The translations under genes were made by a program, and so were the position numbers. Of a DNA stretch of 64,000 bases, positions 5,377 to 25,457 are shown piece after piece (positions within the stretch are counted from its first letter, which is position 1; each line of letters starts with the position of its first letter). Under the pieces are notes generated by a model that was given only the letters and a program-made list of their open reading frames with translations, searched no databases and was not told where the DNA came from. Origin of the DNA: Marivivens sp. (lineage in GTDB: Bacteria > Pseudomonadota > Alphaproteobacteria > Rhodobacterales > Rhodobacteraceae); the NCBI GenBank assembly GCA_030827165.1, contig JAURFB010000004.1, positions 1 through 64,000 of the forward strand, written 5' to 3'.

Positions 5377-6725
5377 GTTCCTGGATTGACAAGATTCCCG
5401 CCGCCGCGCGGACCTATATCGAAAACAACCGCCTCGACGAGGTGGAATGCGTGATCGCCGACTTGCCGGGCATTGCGAGAGGCAAGGCCGTGCCGGCTGC
5501 CAAATGGGAGCGCCAGACTTCGTTTCACCTGCCCAATTCGATCTTCTTCCAGACGATCACCGGTGATTGGGGCGAAGCGGCCGAGGACGGCTTTACCGAG
5601 CCGGACATGATCCTAAAGCCCGACCTTTCGACGACAACCGCTGCCCCTTGGGCCGCCGATGGCACATTGCAGGTGATCCACGATGCCTTTGACATGAAGG
5701 GCAAGCCGATCGGCTGCGCGCCCCGCAATGTCCTCAAGCGTGTGGTCGAGCTCTACAAGAAAGAGGGCTGGACCCCGGTTGTCGCGCCCGAGATGGAATT
5801 CTATCTCGTCGGCCGCAACGTCGACCCTGCCAAGCCGATCGAGCCGATGATGGGCCGCACCGGCCGACCCGCCGCCGCCCGTCAGGCCTATTCCATGGCC
5901 GCGGTCGATGATTACGGCCCGGTCATCGACGACATCTACGAGTATTCGGAAATCCAGGGCATCGAGATCGACGGCATCACCCAGGAAGGCGGCGCCGGCC
6001 AGCTTGAAATCAACCTCCGCCACGGCGATCCGGTCAAGCTTGCCGACGAAGTGTTCTACTTCAAGCGCCTGATCCGCGAGGCGGCCCTCAAGCACGATTG
6101 CTTCGCCACCTTCATGGCCAAGCCGATCGAAGGCGAGCCGGGCTCAGCCATGCACATCCACCATTCGGTGATCGACGAGAAGGGCAAGAACATCTTCGCC
6201 GGCCCGCAAGGTGGCGAGACCGATGCCTTCTTCCACTTTATCGGCGGCCTTCAGGAATACATGCCTGCCGTAATTGCCGTGATCGCGCCGTATGTGAACA
6301 GCTATCGCCGCTATGTGCGCAACCACGCCGCGCCGATCAACCTCGAATGGGGGCGCGACAACCGCACCACCGGCATCCGCATCCCCGTCTCGCCTCCCGA
6401 AGCACGTCGGGTCGAGAACCGGCTCGCGGGCATGGACGGCAATCCCTATCTGGTGATCGCCGCCTCGCTGGCCTGTGGCTATCTCGGCATGAAAAACGAG
6501 ATCTGGCCCGACAAGCGCTATCAGGGCGATGCCTATGAGGCCGAAGACGCGATCCCGCAGGGCCTCAATGCCGCGCTTGATCTTTTTGACGAGGCAAAGG
6601 AAGTCCACGAAGTCCTCGGGCCGGAATTCGCCCGCGTCTATTCGATCGTCAAGCGAACGGAATATGACGAGTTCCTTCAGGTCATCAGCCCGTGGGAACG
6701 TGAGCACCTGCTCTTGAACGTATGA
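5373..6725 (+). CDS. Glutamine synthetase family protein, second copy (PuuA-like)
   Basis: VVAPEMEFYLVG, GAGQLEINLRHGDP, SAMHIHHSV, DNRTTGIRIPVSPPEARRVENRLAG; start ATG 5373 overlaps the GATase stop. Confidence 0.88.
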   Translation: MSSWIDKIPAAARTYIENNRLDEVECVIADLPGIARGKAVPAAKWERQTSFHLPNSIFFQTITGDWGEAAEDGFTEPDMILKPDLSTTTAAPWAADGTLQVIHDAFDMKGKPIGCAPRNVLKRVVELYKKEGWTPVVAPEMEFYLVGRNVDPAKPIEPMMGRTGRPAAARQAYSMAAVDDYGPVIDDIYEYSEIQGIEIDGITQEGGAGQLEINLRHGDPVKLADEVFYFKRLIREAALKHDCFATFMAKPIEGEPGSAMHIHHSVIDEKGKNIFAGPQGGETDAFFHFIGGLQEYMPAVIAVIAPYVNSYRRYVRNHAAPINLEWGRDNRTTGIRIPVSPPEARRVENRLAGMDGNPYLVIAASLACGYLGMKNEIWPDKRYQGDAYEAEDAIPQGLNAALDLFDEAKEVHEVLGPEFARVYSIVKRTEYDEFLQVISPWEREHLLLNV

Positions 6726-8026
6726 ACCCGCTGCACCTCAACGACCGGCCTGGGGAGTTTCCCCCGAGCTGGTATGCGGCGACCGCCAAGCCCCTGCCCC
6801 AGCGCACCGCGCTTGAAGGAGAGGTCACGGCCGATGTCTGTATCGTCGGGGCGGGATATACCGGCCTGACCGCAGCCCTCACGCTTGCGGAAAAGGGTCT
6901 GAAGGTCATTGTCCTTGAAGCGCACCGGATCGGCTGGGGCGCTTCGGGTCGCAACGGCGGGCAAGTCGGATCGGCCTATAACAAGGGTCAGCGCTGGATC
7001 GAAAAGCGGGTGGGCTTTGCCAGGGCCAAGGCCATGTGGGATCTGGCCGAGGAGAGCAAGGCGCTTGTCGCCGATCTATCGGCTCGCCATGCGCCCGAGG
7101 CGCGGCTTTTGCCCGGCATCGCCCACGGCGAATATACGGCGCGCGAACTTTCCGGTGTGACAGCCGAAGCCGAGCACCTTTCGGTCCGGTATGACTATGA
7201 CAAGATCACCGTTCTCGGCCCGCAGGATTTCGCGGGGCTTGTCTGCTCGCCGCTCTACCACGGCGGGATGATCGACCGGGGCGCGGGCCACATTCATCCG
7301 CTGCGCTATGTGATCGGGCTCGGCAAGGCTGCGCTGGCGGCGGGGGCCGAGGTCTTTGAAGGCAGCGAAGTCCTCAAGATTGAGCATGGCGATCCGGCGA
7401 TCCTGACCACCGCCAAGGGACGCGTTCGCGCGGGGCACGTCATCCTTGCCGGCAACGGCTATCTGCCGCACCTTGCCAAGGAAGTGGCGCGCAAGGTGAT
7501 GCCGATCAACAGCTTTATCGGCGCGACCCCGCCACTTGGCGATCTGGCGCGCAAGGTCCTTTCCGAAGACATCGCCGCCTGCGATTCAAGCCATTTGGTC
7601 AACTATTTCCGCACCACCGAGGACGGCCGCCTCCTGTTCGGCGGCCGCGCCAATTACTCGCTGAAATTCCCTGACGACATCGGCACGGCGCTGAACCGGC
7701 GGATGCAGGAGATGTTTCCACAGCTGCGTGGCGTGGGGTTCGATCATGTCTGGGGCGGCACCCTTGGAGTGACCATGACCCGCCTGCCCGCCGTGCTTCG
7801 CATTGCCCCCAATATCGTCTCGGCCTCAGGCTATTCCGGGCACGGCGTGGCGCTTGCCGGGATCGCCGGCAAGGTCATGGCGGAGGCGGTAGCCGGGCAA
7901 GCCAGCCGTTTCGAGACGCTGGCCGCCCTGCCATCGCGCCCCTTCCCGTTCGGCGCGCATCTGCAAGAACCGACCATGACCCTCGCGATGGTCTGGTATC
8001 GCCTGCGCGACAGACTGGGACACTAA
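6722..8026 (+). CDS. FAD-dependent oxidoreductase (DAO family, PuuB-like)
   Basis: ADVCIVGAGYTGLTAALTLAEKGLKVIVLEA Rossmann FAD motif; GWGASGRNGGQVG; overlaps preceding GS gene. Confidence 0.88.
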   Translation: MNPLHLNDRPGEFPPSWYAATAKPLPQRTALEGEVTADVCIVGAGYTGLTAALTLAEKGLKVIVLEAHRIGWGASGRNGGQVGSAYNKGQRWIEKRVGFARAKAMWDLAEESKALVADLSARHAPEARLLPGIAHGEYTARELSGVTAEAEHLSVRYDYDKITVLGPQDFAGLVCSPLYHGGMIDRGAGHIHPLRYVIGLGKAALAAGAEVFEGSEVLKIEHGDPAILTTAKGRVRAGHVILAGNGYLPHLAKEVARKVMPINSFIGATPPLGDLARKVLSEDIAACDSSHLVNYFRTTEDGRLLFGGRANYSLKFPDDIGTALNRRMQEMFPQLRGVGFDHVWGGTLGVTMTRLPAVLRIAPNIVSASGYSGHGVALAGIAGKVMAEAVAGQASRFETLAALPSRPFPFGAHLQEPTMTLAMVWYRLRDRLGH

Positions 8027-16648: not shown

Positions 16649-16819
16649 CAATGCCTTAGCTTCGGGCATTCGGATCTTTCTCACAGTTGGGCCTCACCGG
16701 CGATCACTCACACGCGAGGCACGAGGCCGTGAATTCCCAGTGTGTCCTTGCCCCCCGTAGCCTTTGCCCATCGCCGCAACGTCGCGGCGCTGCTCGAATG
16801 CCCAAAGAAAGGGAGATCA

Positions 16820-17170
16820 ATGTCGAAAACCTCGAAAACCATTTTTGTCGCCTCCGCCGTCGCCACGGCAATTACTTCGCTCGCCCACACCGCCGGCGCC
16901 GCCGGTGAAGAGAAATGCTATGGCGTTTCGCTGGCGGGAGAGAACGATTGCGCCGCGGGCCCCGGCACCTCCTGCGCCGGCTCCTCCACCGTCGATTACC
17001 AGGGCAATGCCTGGAGCCTTGTTCCCGAAGGCACCTGCGAAACGATGATGCTGCCCGATGGCCGCCACGGCGCATTGGCCTCGGCTCTTGAAGAAGAAGG
17101 CTTCTTTGGCCTCGCCCGCGACCTTCCCGAAGGCATGTCGACCGAGGGCCTCAAGTCCGTCGAGATGTAA
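16820..17170 (+). CDS. bufA: DUF2282 family bufferin-like RiPP precursor (BufA1-like)
   Basis: Signal peptide, then [45 protein letters not shown] with four conserved Cys; GGGAG RBS; followed by DUF692 and DUF2063 genes. Confidence 0.88.
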
Positions 17171-17187
17171 GCCGCCACTCAGCGCAT

Positions 17188-17209
17188 GGGGCCGGTGCAA
17201 GCCGGCCCC
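17188..17209 (+). promoter_or_regulatory. GC-rich intercistronic hairpin between precursor and MNIO genes
   Basis: GGGGCCGG (17188-17195) / CCGGCCCC (17202-17209), 6-nt loop, no U-tract. Confidence 0.65.
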
Positions 17210-17230
17210 GACCACGCGAAGGAGACCCAG

Positions 17231-18085
17231 TTGTTTGACATGAGGCCCACCCCCGCTCTGCCGCCCCTGCCCGGCGTCGGTTACAAGCCCCAGCATTTTG
17301 CAGCGATCCTCGCCGATCCCGCCCCCGTGGGCTGGTTCGAAATCCACGCCGAGAATTATGTGGGTGATGGCGGGCGACCTCTGGCGCAACTGCGGGCGCT
17401 GGCCGATCGGTTTCCGATCTCGGTGCATGGCGTCGGCCTGTCGATCGGCGGCGAGGGGCGGCTCGACCGCGATCACCTTGCACGCCTGAAGCGCCTTGTC
17501 GACTGGCTCAGCCCCGCCAGCTTTTCCGAACACCTCGCCTGGTCGAGCCACGGCGGGGCCTATTTCAACGATCTCCTGCCCCTGCCCTATACCGCCGCCA
17601 CACTGGCCCGCGTCGCCGATCATATCGACGAAGTGCAAGAGGCGCTGGGGCGGCAAATGCTCCTTGAGAACCCGTCGTCCTATCTTGCTTTTGCCGAAAG
17701 CGAGATTAGCGAAACAGATTTTCTGCGGGCCGTGTCGAGCCGGACAGGCTGCGGCCTTCTTCTCGATATCAACAACGTCTTTGTCTCGGCCACCAACCTT
17801 CGCAATGATCCCCGCTCCTATATCGACGCCTTCCCGCTGGACCGTGTGAAAGAGATGCACCTCGGCGGGCATGAGGCGGACGCCGATGAGGACGGCACGC
17901 TCCTCTTGATCGACAGCCACGGCGCACCGATGGCCGATCCGGTCTGGGCGCTGCTTGATCATACGCTCGCCCGCTCTGGCCCGCGCCCCTTGCTCATCGA
18001 GTGGGACAATGACGTGCCCGATTGGCCGGCCCTCACCGACGAGGCCCGCAAAGCCGCCGCCGCCCTTGAAAGGATTGCCGCATGA
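17231..18085 (+). CDS. bufB: DUF692 / MNIO-family enzyme (BufB-like multinuclear non-heme iron oxidase)
   Basis: [66 protein letters not shown] start at 17231 best fits the AAGGAG RBS (ATG at 17240 possible). Confidence 0.92.
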
Positions 18086-18825
18086 CCGACGCAGGTTTCA
18101 GCGCAGCTTTGCTCGATCCCGAGCGCCCCGTACCTGCGGGGTTGATCACGCCGGACGGAAAGCCAGCCTCGCGCCGCTATGCGATCTATCGCAACAATGT
18201 CACTGTAGGATTGACCGAAGCCCTGGAGGCGGGCTTTCCGGTGGTCCGCAAGATCGTGGGAGAGAGGTTCTTTCAGGCGATGGCGGTGGTATTTGTCCGC
18301 AACCATCCCCCCGCTTCACCGATCCTTGCTGGCTATGGGGCCGACATGCCCGGGTTCTTGCGCGGTTTGGAGCCGGTGGCGCATCTGAAATACCTCCCCG
18401 ACGTGGCCCGGCTCGAGCTGGCGTTGCGCCGGGCCTATCACGCGGGCGATGCGGCGCCGATCGCCGCCGATGCGCTGGCCGCCCTGCCGCCCGACCGGCT
18501 GATGCGCGCGCGATTGGGGCTTGCGCCGCCGGTGCAGCTTTTGTCGTCTCGCTTTGCGATCCATGACATCTGGACATTCAACATGACCGAAGGCGCCCCC
18601 CGCCCGACGGGTCAGGCCCAGGATGTCTTGATCACCCGGCCCAGTCTGACTCCGATCCCGACCCTGATCGACCGGGCCGGGGCGGAATATGTCGCCGCCC
18701 TCTTGGCTGGCAAGAGCTTCGGCGCAGCCATTGCCGCAGGCGGCGCGGCGCTTGACCTTCCCGGCACGCTTGGCCTTCTTCTTGGACATGCGGCGATCAC
18801 ATCCATCGACAGGGGCCAGCCATGA
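18082..18825 (+). CDS. bufC: DUF2063 / BufC-HvfC-like RiPP partner protein
   Basis: [63 protein letters not shown] overlap with DUF692 gene. Confidence 0.9.
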
Positions 18826-19400
18826 CCGCGCTTCTCAGCTTCTGCTCCCGCACCGCCGGCTGGCTCGACCGCATGGCGCCGATTGTCCTGCCGACGCTGG
18901 CGCGGTTTGTCTTTGCGGCCGTGCTTCTCGTCGATTTCTGGGGCTCTGCGCTGACCAAACTGGGCGATGGCCCCCTCGGCCTCTTCCGGCCCTCGTCGGG
19001 CGCCTATGTCCAGATCTTCCCCAAGGCGATGGAGGCGGCGGGATATGATGCCTCGGCGCTTGGCCTGTGGCATTGGGCGGTCGTCGTCCTTGGCACGGGC
19101 GCGGAGTTCGTGCTGCCCGCCCTTCTCCTCGTCGGCCTCTGCACGCGCCTCGCCGCGCTTGGAATGATCGGCTTTGTCGCGGTGCAGACGCTGACCGACC
19201 TTTACGGCCACGGCGCGATCCATCAGGCGGCGACGCTGGGCGCGTGGTTCGACCGCGCCTCGGGCGCGCTCATCCTCGATCAGCGGGCGTTCTGGGTCTT
19301 GGGGTTGTCGGTTCTGGTCCTGCTTGGCGGCGGGCCTTTGTCTGCCGACCGTCTGATCAGAAATGCGCCTTGGGCTCGTCCGGCTTTCCCGCGGCGATAG
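18822..19400 (+). CDS. DoxX-family membrane protein
   Basis: Four-TM DoxX-like: LARFVFAAVLLVDFWGSALTKL...VLPALLLVGLCTRLAALGMIGFV; overlaps bufC by 4 nt. Confidence 0.88.
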   Translation: MTALLSFCSRTAGWLDRMAPIVLPTLARFVFAAVLLVDFWGSALTKLGDGPLGLFRPSSGAYVQIFPKAMEAAGYDASALGLWHWAVVVLGTGAEFVLPALLLVGLCTRLAALGMIGFVAVQTLTDLYGHGAIHQAATLGAWFDRASGALILDQRAFWVLGLSVLVLLGGGPLSADRLIRNAPWARPAFPRR

Positions 19401-20639: not shown

Positions 20640-21407
20640 CTATTTCATCGTAGCTTGATTCAGAAAATCCATGATGAAGCCGCTTTTCAGAAAATAGAGG
20701 TATTCTCTCCCGGACCTCAGCATCATCCCACCGAGATAGACTGTAGGCACTTCGCCAACCAGTTGAACGACATAGACGGGGCCCCCGCTCATACCATTTG
20801 GATCGATATCCAAGGGTGACTGATATCTCGCTTTTAGCAAAGCGTGATCTGTAGGCTGATTTTCAAGTAAGGCAACCGCCGCCCTTATCCTTGTCCTTAA
20901 GTGGTTCTTTTCCCACAGCTCGTATACCTGATCGTCGAAGGGAAAGCCGCAGGCAAGTATTGCAAGAACATGGTCCGAAGATACCGTTGGAGGTACGTAG
21001 TCGAAGTTCCAAAAATGCGATCGAAAGCTAGTGTGCTCCTCCAATGCCTCCGTAAAATCGAATACCGCAATGTCAAACTCATCGGTCTCCCGTCTCACTG
21101 GAGCCTTAAAATAGCGGACCCCTGACGAGGTAATCGCCAAACTGCCATCCGAATACAGGAGGCAGACGTCCTTTGGATCGATATCATCTAGCTGTTGCGC
21201 AGAGCAGACAACCAAGTAGCGATCCCGGAACTTGACCGGTGTGCCACTACCTAGGAGCTGGATTTTGTGGATAGGATCGCGCGTCCATACATTGAGCGAC
21301 TTGCAGAAGGTTGTTAGATGCTTCTCCAGGTTTCGACTTGGAATAAACAGCCCATTCAGAGAAACGCTCGTCTCCATCAAACTTGGAAGGACGAGCGGCG
21401 CTCTCAC
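20640..21407 (-). CDS. Hypothetical protein with trypsin-fold-like signature; putative His->Gln degenerate protease
   Basis: [44 protein letters not shown] resemble H/D/S regions; GTG start overlaps thyX stop (ATG 21377 alternative). Confidence 0.5.
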
Positions 21408-22318
21408 TCCCCAATCACCCCCTCAAACTCCCGCCATTCGCCTTTGCTCATGCCGGAGGTTTCCTGCGTCACCTGCTCACCCTTGAGCATACGCCGCACG
21501 CAATCCAGAGCCTTGCCTGAAAGCGTCGCGCCGCCCATGCGGTAATCCTCGAACGCGCCGTAGGCTGCCGGCACCCAGTCGGCCACGAGCCGGCAGATCT
21601 CTTCGGCATAGACACGGATCTCGTATTGGGCGTGGGCGTCGGCGCGCAGCCGCAGGAAGTGGAAGAGGTTGTGCAGATCGACCTTCCAATACCACTGGGT
21701 ATAGATATTGGCCGGCAGGTTCATCCGCGCCAGCTCGCGCGCGAGGCCCTGCTGCCCCTCTTGGCCGATCATTTCCTCGTAATGGTCATAACAGCGGGCG
21801 GCGTCGCCCTTGAGGTAGTCCAGAACGCGGGCGGCCTCTTCGGCCGAGAGCGTCTCGCCCCGGCCCTGATTGTTGATCACCGATTGCGCGGCAAGATGTT
21901 CGGGCGCAGGGATATAGAATTCGCGATCGAGGATCGAATAGCGGGCCGAATATTCGTTCACGTTGGCGGTGCGGTGGCGGATCCACTGGCGGGCAACAAA
22001 GACCGGCAGCTTTACATGGAGCTTGATCTCGCACATCTCGAAGGGGGTCGAATGCCAGTGGCGCATGAGATAGCGGATCAGCCCCTCGTCGTTCTGCACC
22101 GATTTGGTGCCCTTGCCATAGCTGACGCGGGCCGCCTGACAGATGGCAGCATCATCGCCCATATAATCGATCACCCGGACAAACCCGTGGTCGAGCACCG
22201 GATTGATCTTGTAGAGATGCGCTTCCATCCCGTCGGACACGGCCCGCAGCGTGGGGCGCGGGTTGGCCCGCAGCTCGGCGATTTCGGCCTCTTGTTCTGA
22301 GGTGACGGGCATCTGCAT
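21404..22318 (-). CDS. thyX: FAD-dependent thymidylate synthase
   Basis: ThyX motif [34 protein letters not shown]. Confidence 0.97.
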
Positions 22319-22516: not shown

Positions 22517-23566
22517 ATGTTTCGTCACGTTTTTACCGTGAGCGCCCTTGCGCTGGTTATTGGCTGCAACGGCACCAACCCGTTTTTCGACACCGATGCG
22601 TCGACCCCCGACGTGATCGGCGATGTCGAGCTTCCGCCCGAGGTGGAGCAACCGCCCACCGCCACGCCGGGCAGTATCTTGCGCTATGAAGAGCTGAACA
22701 GCTATGGCGGCGGCTACGCCGAGAGCGTGGTCTACAACTCGGGCGACGATACCTTCGAGGTCGATAACATCGCCTTTGACGGTCTGAATGTTTACAACCT
22801 GTCGGCCTTGGCCATGGGCGCCGGCCCGGTCGGCGAAATAGGCGGTTATGTTCTCTTCGACGCCGACGTCACCGTTCCCGATTTCCTGACCGGCAACCCG
22901 GTCAGCCAGATCGTGCCTTATCACGCGATCTATGGCGAAAGCGCGGTTCTGGTGGATGGCGAGCCGCGCTCGCGTTTTGCGATCGTGCGGACTGGCGGCT
23001 ATGCCGACTATGGCTTTGGCGGCTTCATCTACGAACGCAACGGCACCGTCGTTCTGCCTCCGGCCGGCGAAAGCGGACAAGCGGGCTTTTCCGGCCGCTA
23101 TGCCGGGATGCGGGTCTTTAGCGACATGGGTGGCCTCGAGTTCACCGAAGGCGATATGCAAATCGCGATCGATTTCGGCGATTTCAACGAGACCCACGCC
23201 GTCAGCGGCCTTCTTTACAATCGCGTGGCCTATGACAAGTCCGGCACTCCCATCTTGTTGGGCACTGACGGGTCGAGCGGAGAGCTGCCACTGCCCAACC
23301 TGCATTTCGTGATTGAGGCCAACGTCGACACACTTAACTCCAACGGCGAGATCGCCGGCAAGGTCATCAGCACCTACATCGAGACCGATGAGAACGAGGC
23401 GGTCGATCCCTACGAGGAGGGGTTCTACTACGGCATCATATCGGGCGATACGACCGGTGGCGATGGCGGTGAGCTTGTGGGCATCCTTGTCTTTGAATCC
23501 GACGATCCGCGCTATGATAACGTGAGCGTCCAGGAAACCGGTGGCTTCATCCTTCTGCGGAACTAG
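22517..23566 (+). CDS. Lipoprotein with TbpB-like beta-barrel; predicted Slam-dependent surface lipoprotein
   Basis: Lipobox ALALVIGC; VRTGGYADYGFGGFIYERNG and AGFSGRYAGMRVFSDMGGLEFTEGDMQIAIDFGDFN barrel-like repeats; 4 nt upstream of Slam-like gene. Confidence 0.72.
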   Translation: MFRHVFTVSALALVIGCNGTNPFFDTDASTPDVIGDVELPPEVEQPPTATPGSILRYEELNSYGGGYAESVVYNSGDDTFEVDNIAFDGLNVYNLSALAMGAGPVGEIGGYVLFDADVTVPDFLTGNPVSQIVPYHAIYGESAVLVDGEPRSRFAIVRTGGYADYGFGGFIYERNGTVVLPPAGESGQAGFSGRYAGMRVFSDMGGLEFTEGDMQIAIDFGDFNETHAVSGLLYNRVAYDKSGTPILLGTDGSSGELPLPNLHFVIEANVDTLNSNGEIAGKVISTYIETDENEAVDPYEEGFYYGIISGDTTGGDGGELVGILVFESDDPRYDNVSVQETGGFILLRN

Positions 23567-23570
23567 CCCC

Positions 23571-24959
23571 ATGGGCCGAGCGCCCCGCTCTTTGTTTTTC
23601 GGGTTCTTGATGATCCTATTCTGGCTGGCGCTAGCGCCGGCCAGATTAGCGTCGGCCGAAGCCGTCACCCTGATCCCTGGCGAAATGCGGCAAGCAGCGG
23701 CCCTTTCATTCCAGCAAGGCGCGTTCGATCAGGCCGAGGCCCTCGCCCGCGCGCTCTTGCGGCGCGATCCGCGCGACCTTGCCGCCCAGATCGTGATGAT
23801 CGAGGTCGCGTCGGCGCGCGGGGATCACGAGGCTGCCGCCGATATGGCCGCCTATGGCTATGGCATCGCCGAGACCGACATCGCCCGCTATACCCTCGCC
23901 CGCCTTGCCGCCCGCGAACACGTGATCCTTGAACAGGGCACTCGCGGCCAGCTTTGGCTGCGCCGCGCCCGCGAGGCGAGCCCGACCGACGCCGCCGCCC
24001 GCGAGGTGGCCGAGGATTACGCCTTTATCCGCGCCCGTAATCCCTTGTCGGTCTCGGTAAACGGCGGGGTCGCGCCGCGATCGAACGTCAACAACGGCTC
24101 GTCACAGACGACACAGGAAATCCTGATCTTTGGAATGCCTGTCACCCTGCCCCTTTCGGGCGACGCGCAGGCGCTTTCGGGGATTGCCTTTTGCCTTGGC
24201 GGCGATTTGTCCTATCGGCTCGACGACCGGGGCGATGTGCGGACGACCCTCACGCTCGCCGCCTTTGGCGAGACCTATCAGCTCAGCGACGAAGCCAAGG
24301 CGCTTGCCCCGACAGCACATGGCGACGATTTCGCCTATGTGAACGCCGAACTCGCGCTGCGCCAGGAGCGGCGGGTCGGACAAGACGGGGCCATCCTGAG
24401 TTATGGCGGTGCGGCCGGCACCACATGGTCGGGTGGCGCGCCCTATTACTATTTCACCCGCCTGAGCCTCACCTACGGCTGGCAGAACGATGGCGGGATG
24501 CGGCACCGGCTTGATGGCCAGACCGAACGCCAGACCGCCAGAAGCGGCGGCGATCCGCGAGAGATCGCCGAAATCGGCTGGCGCGGCGACTGGACCACGG
24601 ATGCCGGAAGCCAGATGTCGGCCGCGCTGCGCCTGTCGCGGAGCGGCTCGACCAATCCCAACTATGATTACGACGGGATCTCGGCCACTCTCAGCTGGGC
24701 GCCCCAGGCCGCCTTCGCCCGCGGTCATTGGTCGCTCAGCGGCGAGATTGGCGGCCGCGATTTCTCGCCGTCCCTCCTTTCGCCCGAACCGCGCCAAGAC
24801 CGTTCTGTCTCGGCCCGCCTGACCTATCGTCCCGACAGCCTCGAGTTCTACGGTTTCCGCCCCGAGATCGCTGTGACCGGTCGCCTCAACGCCTCGAACG
24901 TCGCCCGTTTCGATACCAACGATCTGGGGCTGGGCCTTCGGATCGTGTCGTCGTTCTAA
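23571..24959 (+). CDS. Surface lipoprotein assembly modifier (Slam/DUF560)-like outer-membrane protein
   Basis: Signal peptide, N-terminal TPR-like helices, then LSVSVNGGVAPRSNVNNGSSQTTQEILIFGMPVTLPLSGDAQALSGIAF (Slam motif) and C-terminal barrel ending in ...GLRIVSSF. Confidence 0.8.
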   Translation: MGRAPRSLFFGFLMILFWLALAPARLASAEAVTLIPGEMRQAAALSFQQGAFDQAEALARALLRRDPRDLAAQIVMIEVASARGDHEAAADMAAYGYGIAETDIARYTLARLAAREHVILEQGTRGQLWLRRAREASPTDAAAREVAEDYAFIRARNPLSVSVNGGVAPRSNVNNGSSQTTQEILIFGMPVTLPLSGDAQALSGIAFCLGGDLSYRLDDRGDVRTTLTLAAFGETYQLSDEAKALAPTAHGDDFAYVNAELALRQERRVGQDGAILSYGGAAGTTWSGGAPYYYFTRLSLTYGWQNDGGMRHRLDGQTERQTARSGGDPREIAEIGWRGDWTTDAGSQMSAALRLSRSGSTNPNYDYDGISATLSWAPQAAFARGHWSLSGEIGGRDFSPSLLSPEPRQDRSVSARLTYRPDSLEFYGFRPEIAVTGRLNASNVARFDTNDLGLGLRIVSSF

Positions 24960-25028: not shown

Positions 25029-25457
25029 ATGACGATCCGCTATCTGCACACCATGGTCCGCGTGCTGGACCTTGAAAAAGCCATCGCCTTTTACGGGCTG
25101 CTGGGCCTCAAGGAGACCCGCCGCTACGAGAATGAAGGCGGCCGCTTTACCCTGATCTTCATGGCCCCTCCGGGGCAAGAAGACTGCCCTGTCGAGCTTA
25201 CCTACAACTGGGACGGCGACGAGGGCCTGCCCTCGGACAGCCGCCATTTCGGCCACCTCGCCTATGAGGTCGACAACATCTATGAGACCTGCAAGCACCT
25301 GATCGAAAACGGCGTCACCCTCAACCGGCCGCCGCGCGATGGCCGCATGGCCTTTGTCCGCTCGCCCGACAACATCTCGATCGAGCTTCTGCAAAAGGGA
25401 GGTGCGCTCGCTCCGGCCGAGCCGTGGCTTTCGCTTCCCAATATCGGTCACTGGTAG
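25029..25457 (+). CDS. gloA: Lactoylglutathione lyase (glyoxalase I)
   Basis: [41 protein letters not shown]...[30 protein letters not shown]. Confidence 0.94.

Follow-up and report, generated by a model that had tools for sequence, protein, structure and literature searches.

A probable cluster 3 T11SS (Slam/DUF560) channel and its dedicated lipoprotein cargo at a thyX–glyoxalase locus in Rhodobacteraceae

The two-gene unit described here, which lies in a 64,000-nucleotide stretch of a Rhodobacteraceae genome (the window), very probably encodes a cluster 3 T11SS (Slam/DUF560) channel and its dedicated lipoprotein cargo, a level of confidence that we place in the channel and the cargo and not in any role of the cargo as an adhesin or sensor. 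The locus type itself is already known; what is new here is a family-wide correction of how often the cargo is present. A 2025 survey left the barrel cargo of marine T11SS channels in doubt, and the profiles used here indicate that it is near-constantly present. The unit thereby offers a clean one-to-one channel and cargo pair for studying Slam-type cargo recognition outside pathogens, in a genus with no detectable DUF1194 proteins or TonB receptors.

Results

The source genome, a 2.39-Mb Rhodobacteraceae MAG that is 82% complete, holds a single copy of the channel gene (OMP). Its closest named relatives by OMP, at 74-78% identity in that protein, are Marivivens and uncultured Rhodobacteraceae MAGs. 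The lipobox ALALVIGC and the second gene 4 nt downstream (gap CCCC), from which the original prediction started, lie exactly where it had placed them (Table 1). The OMP stands in synteny with thyX and a glyoxalase gene, and the window locus thus appears to match the published cluster 3 T11SS locus of marine Rhodobacteraceae/Roseobacteraceae (thyX, cargo, OMP, glyoxalase; Grossman et al. 2025, Fig. 8, PMC12282271), an assignment based on synteny and taxonomy rather than on a rebuilt sequence similarity network. The wider gene order is retained in many relatives and includes cold-shock, MarR-type regulator, Sdh5/CptB, HigA-like, aminotransferase and thrS genes. Within the genus both ORFs share 75-85% identity, and across the family the lipoprotein shares 23-53%. 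A promoter scan 5' of the unit found none, and this 5' region aligns with three relatives.

Table 1. Features of the cargo–channel unit and its flanking marker genes (window coordinates)
Feature	Coordinates	Strand	Basis and remarks
thyX, flavin-dependent thymidylate synthase	21404..22318	-	Pfam Thy1 3.6e-56, synteny; marker of published locus
Lipoprotein (predicted T11SS cargo), 349 aa	22517..23566	+	ORF and lipobox, alignment, AF2, Foldseek; ATG 22517, stop 23564-23566
Predicted SPII signal peptide and lipidated Cys17, ALALVIG-C	22517..22567	+	Sequence; Cys aligned in relatives; Cys codon 22565-22567
NPF tripeptide soon after Cys, variable linker	22577..22585	+	Pattern in cargo alignment
N-terminal handle/pedestal of cargo, residues ~51-185, candidate ligand-binding part	22667..23071	+	AF2; boundary approximate
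C-terminal eight-strand-type barrel of cargo, residues ~186-349	23072..23563	+	AF2 strands, Foldseek
T11SS/Slam-type OM translocon (OMP), 462 aa	23571..24959	+	SlipAM in relatives, AF2; ATG 23571, stop 24957-24959
OMP signal peptide, residues 1-29 (approximate)	23571..23657	+	Sequence and model
Periplasmic TPR-like helical domain of OMP, residues 36-156	23676..24038	+	Weak TPR_19/TPR_14 matches, profile to TPR structures, model helices
C-terminal 14-strand barrel of OMP, residues 159-460	24045..24950	+	AF2
Glyoxalase-family protein	25029..25457	+	Pfam Glyoxalase 3.4e-16, synteny; marker of published locus

The first protein carries a predicted SPII signal peptide whose Cys17 is invariant in 33/33 aligned cargo (the window protein and 32 relatives, rows picked for having a lipobox). 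Its AF2 model (pLDDT 82, pTM 0.81), in which the linker following the Cys is poorly predicted, consists of a beta-rich N-terminal handle followed by a single C-terminal barrel, so that of the TbpB-like barrel repeats first proposed the TbpB-like barrel stands and the repeats do not. Foldseek searches of the PDB with this model returned TbpB, hemophilin/HphA, HpuA, LbpB and NHBA in all of the best 19 rows (best E 2.2e-4), with low query-normalised TM-scores (0.27-0.36) that limit the likeness to the level of the fold. Single-sequence searches with the window lipoprotein gave no Pfam, NCBIfam or PDB match above threshold, TbpB_B_D falling below it, and the cargo profile had no significant match among PDB sequences, with one weak fHbp match at 0.94. 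Among the 33 cargo proteins, FHBP_C was matched by 14 and TbpB_B_D by 8 (E<1, best about 1e-5). Together the model, the Foldseek matches and the domains found in relatives describe a C-terminal eight-stranded barrel of the TbpB/hemophilin/fHbp kind, in keeping with the expectation of a TbpB-like lipoprotein in an alphaproteobacterium. A second cargo type, unlike that of the window, occupies the same site at other loci (e.g. L040, L053, L054, L055, L061 and L074), and many of its members are extended at the C-terminus by a segment with two Cys (CGT...C).

The second protein has the signal peptide, TPR and beta-barrel architecture ascribed to it beforehand, and the motif GGVAPRSNVNNGSS was found at residues 165-178 (24063-24104), within the barrel. 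Its AF2 model (pLDDT 91) shows seven TPR-like helices followed by 14 long strands, and the protein ends at Phe462 in a terminal SxF that is kept in 42/42 aligned members (the window OMP and 41 relatives). Searched as a single sequence against Pfam, NCBIfam and the PDB, the window OMP gave no match to SlipAM (surface lipoprotein assembly modifier, PF04575, DUF560) above threshold and just sub-threshold TPR matches; a PF04575 search of the whole source genome likewise gave no match, but as none was obtained in control genomes either, this search is no evidence that the family is absent. Within the OMP alignment, by comparison, SlipAM was matched by 27/42 members (E<0.01, best 4.8e-9). Neither window protein reaches its Pfam threshold (SlipAM for the OMP, TbpB_B_D for the lipoprotein) by itself, and both are assigned to their families through their relatives and folds. 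The SlipAM, FHBP_C and TbpB_B_D matches in relatives and the Slam-type cargo folds of the lipoprotein model thus argue for a Slam/T11SS channel, with an N-terminal TPR domain and a C-terminal DUF560 barrel, and its cargo, and the proposed Slam/DUF560-type identity of the second gene is borne out by this evidence.

To establish how regularly the cargo accompanies the channel, 249 genomes of the family were searched with profiles, taking E<1e-30 as a strong OMP match. The lipoprotein was found in 120 genomes and a strong OMP match in 124; cargo was present in 116/124 OMP-positive genomes versus 4/125 others (Fisher p ~3e-55, a descriptive value because some of these genomes also went into the profiles and because related genomes are not independent). 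In 114/116 genomes the lipoprotein gene lies directly upstream of the OMP on the same strand, and the conservation of both ORFs and of their order in these 114 genomes places the two-gene unit well beyond chance. The cargo is therefore family-wide, present in roughly half of the family members sampled, and the idea of a substrate private to this organism has to be given up, the more so as the locus type is published (PMC12282271). Cluster 3 was reported to be poor in barrel cargo, with 0.21 per OMP, and DUF1194 or novel domains were proposed as alternatives, with sequence divergence also among the options listed by the authors (PMC12282271). Cargo is found here in 94% of OMP-positive genomes, a comparison between different genome sets in that our survey covers 249 family genomes and did not re-search the 145 loci of the earlier study (PMC12282271), and the best explanation of the apparent dearth is that cargo sequences have diverged beyond the reach of search thresholds. 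In another genome of the genus (G130), two OMP paralogues have no cargo upstream. The second OMP paralogue of that genome is adjoined by a divergently transcribed lipoprotein-like ORF with no Pfam match (L036, 5533-6300 on the minus strand and 6369-7685 on the plus strand), and a copy of this type is absent from the window's genome. For the third (L035, 6656-7939, minus strand) no cargo was found, and 3' of it, on the same strand, lie ABC-transporter-like genes (permease, ATPase and substrate-binding protein, read by eye).

Cargo and channel also diverge together beyond neighbouring genes. Across 27 loci cargo distance and OMP distance are correlated (r 0.66), while thyX distance is followed by neither (r 0.04 and 0.07). 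Removing the thyX background left a partial r of 0.66 (0/5000 permutations), and a background of thyX, glyoxalase, MarR and aminotransferase at 15 loci left a partial r of 0.64, this neighbour-gene background being noisy because two neighbour genes correlate weakly together (0.20). When the cargo were split into types A and B, a division made by eye on their alignment, the partial correlation persisted within type A alone (0.57, 16/5000 permutations) and was not significant within type B (5 loci). Since relatives are not independent, the Mantel p-values, like the Fisher value, overstate the strength of these associations. Two cargo types share one site and the neighbouring genes do not separate the organisms that carry them, which suggests that cargo and OMP may have been exchanged as matched pairs.

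A further pattern lies close to the predicted lipidation site: counting from the Cys, 25/33 cargo proteins, of both types, have [NQ]P[FLWH] within the first 12 residues, in an otherwise variable linker. The pattern was found in 0/18 other lipoprotein-like ORFs, a small control (12 taken from 20-kb stretches sampled in relatives, plus about six at the same loci) in which some ORFs are doubtful lipoproteins; the 12 passed a relaxed lipoprotein filter, and a stricter one gave 6 controls, 0 with the motif. Because the pattern was written after the alignment had been seen, some of the controls are doubtful and the cargo proteins are related, we treat this tag as a lead and not a result.

Discussion

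Architectures, family links, conserved gene order, co-occurrence and co-divergence were computed in this work, and from them, by analogy with characterised Slam systems, we infer an export mechanism in which surface exposure of the cargo would depend on the OMP. Translocation by the Slam-Skp-TbpB system is experimentally established, and Skp is required for Slam-dependent display both in Neisseria and in E. coli (PMC9090332); an OmpH/Skp homologue is present in the window's genome. As in the Slam work, the lipoprotein would be lipidated by Lgt/Lsp/Lnt, carried across the periplasm by Lol and kept unfolded by a Skp-type holdase. The TPR domain and barrel of the OMP may then recognise the cargo through its C-terminal barrel, and the cargo would use the 14-strand barrel to reach the outer leaflet, where it would remain lipid-anchored on the surface as a display protein. 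There the N-terminal handle could bind an environmental or cell-surface ligand, with no hand-over to a TonB-dependent receptor. An adhesin or a sensor is our preferred role for the cargo, and this is a guess.

The alternative with the most in its favour is that the cargo binds a nutrient in the manner of TbpB or a hemophore, relaying iron, haem or another metal cofactor to a TonB-dependent receptor. Transferrin, haem or haemoglobin are the ligands of the proteins with the nearest solved folds, and cluster 1 T11SS cargo often act as such nutrient relays (PMC12282271, PMC8406197). Against this, TonB is rare at cluster 3 loci (PMC12282271), and the partner receptor of TbpB-type iron acquisition was not found: the TonB-dependent receptor barrel PF00593 was detected in 0/5 genomes of the genus, the window's included, in a search that gave matches in the E. 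coli, Caulobacter and Bacteroides controls. The initial remark that no TonB receptor lies next door thus extends to the whole genome and to four others of the genus. These five genomes are 82-95% complete, so that single losses could be missed, and absence from all five through incompleteness alone is unlikely. Given that no TonB receptor could be detected, the cargo is unlikely to relay a nutrient, an iron or haem role for it is disfavoured, and we regard this alternative as improbable.

A second alternative holds that the true partner of the OMP is a DUF1194 (vWA/MIDAS) protein and that the adjoining lipoprotein is incidental. DUF1194 is frequent, not universal, at cluster 3 loci (102/145, PMC12282271) and was present in 25/37 of the family loci that we read, and the published dearth of cargo could suggest such a partner. 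DUF1194 was, however, found neither in the window's genome nor in four further genomes of the genus (0/5), while the OMP-lipoprotein pair is seen in the window's genome, in G130 and in Marivivens MAG contigs, and the lipoprotein is far more constant beside the OMP. We consider this alternative very unlikely, and members that have DUF1194 could use both partners. Least credible of all, and rejected here, is a polysaccharide exporter of the BcsC/PelB/PgaA kind in place of a protein translocon, which would fit the best PDB fold matches of the OMP (BcsC and PelBC, in a list that also holds porins including OmpG) and a weak PgaA match at 0.0086, and is opposed by the SlipAM matches of OMP relatives, the strict pairing with a TbpB-fold lipoprotein and the lack of recognised polysaccharide synthase genes among the neighbours examined, TPR-plus-barrel exporters being the expected nearest folds as no Slam structure is among the 50 fold matches listed.

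The channel and dedicated cargo that we favour can be set against three known systems. The cluster 3 locus shares with the window the synteny of thyX, an SPII cargo lipoprotein (282-375 aa, with a C-terminal barrel), OMP and glyoxalase, with cold-shock, HigA/CptB and aminotransferase genes close by; the window locus differs from it in having no DUF1194, which was not detected in the genus either. Neisseria Slam1/TbpB and Slam2/HpuA likewise combine a translocon of TPR and DUF560 barrel with a lipobox cargo ending in a C-terminal barrel, whereas the window cargo has one barrel in place of the two lobes of TbpB, its pair has no TonB receptor partner, and the similarity lies below family thresholds. 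The T11SS-1B systems HrpB/HrpC, with the hemophilin HphA, share a single-barrel cargo fold and an adjoining T11SS OMP, and hemophilin is among the best Foldseek matches of the window cargo; HrpC and hemophilin are both soluble and secreted, and the window cargo instead carries a lipobox. According to the 2025 paper the verified T11SS are cluster 1 systems only (PMC12282271), and our literature search found no experimental study of a cluster 3 system. On the original prediction as a whole, the DUF560 and TbpB-fold searches and the AlphaFold model that it had proposed uphold the channel and the cargo, the lack of a TonB neighbour also stands, and the private substrate is the part that fell.

A broader generalisation, which we put forward as tentative and more doubtful than not, is that the cluster 3 T11SS may be a near-universal, TonB-independent cassette of one channel and one lipoprotein in the Rhodobacteraceae that carry it, exchanged as matched pairs at a fixed thyX-glyoxalase site, with an [NQ]P[F/L] tag beside the Cys serving sorting or channel engagement.

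Two observations concern genes further upstream in the window. At 20640-21407 on the minus strand, a 254-aa protein beside thyX has a GMSGGP motif resembling that of a trypsin-type protease and gave no Pfam match at 0.01. Positions 16817-19400 hold a row of genes for a DUF2282 small protein, an MbnB/TglH/ChrH (DUF692, MNIO) enzyme, DUF2063 and DoxX, which resembles a bufferin-type RiPP locus.
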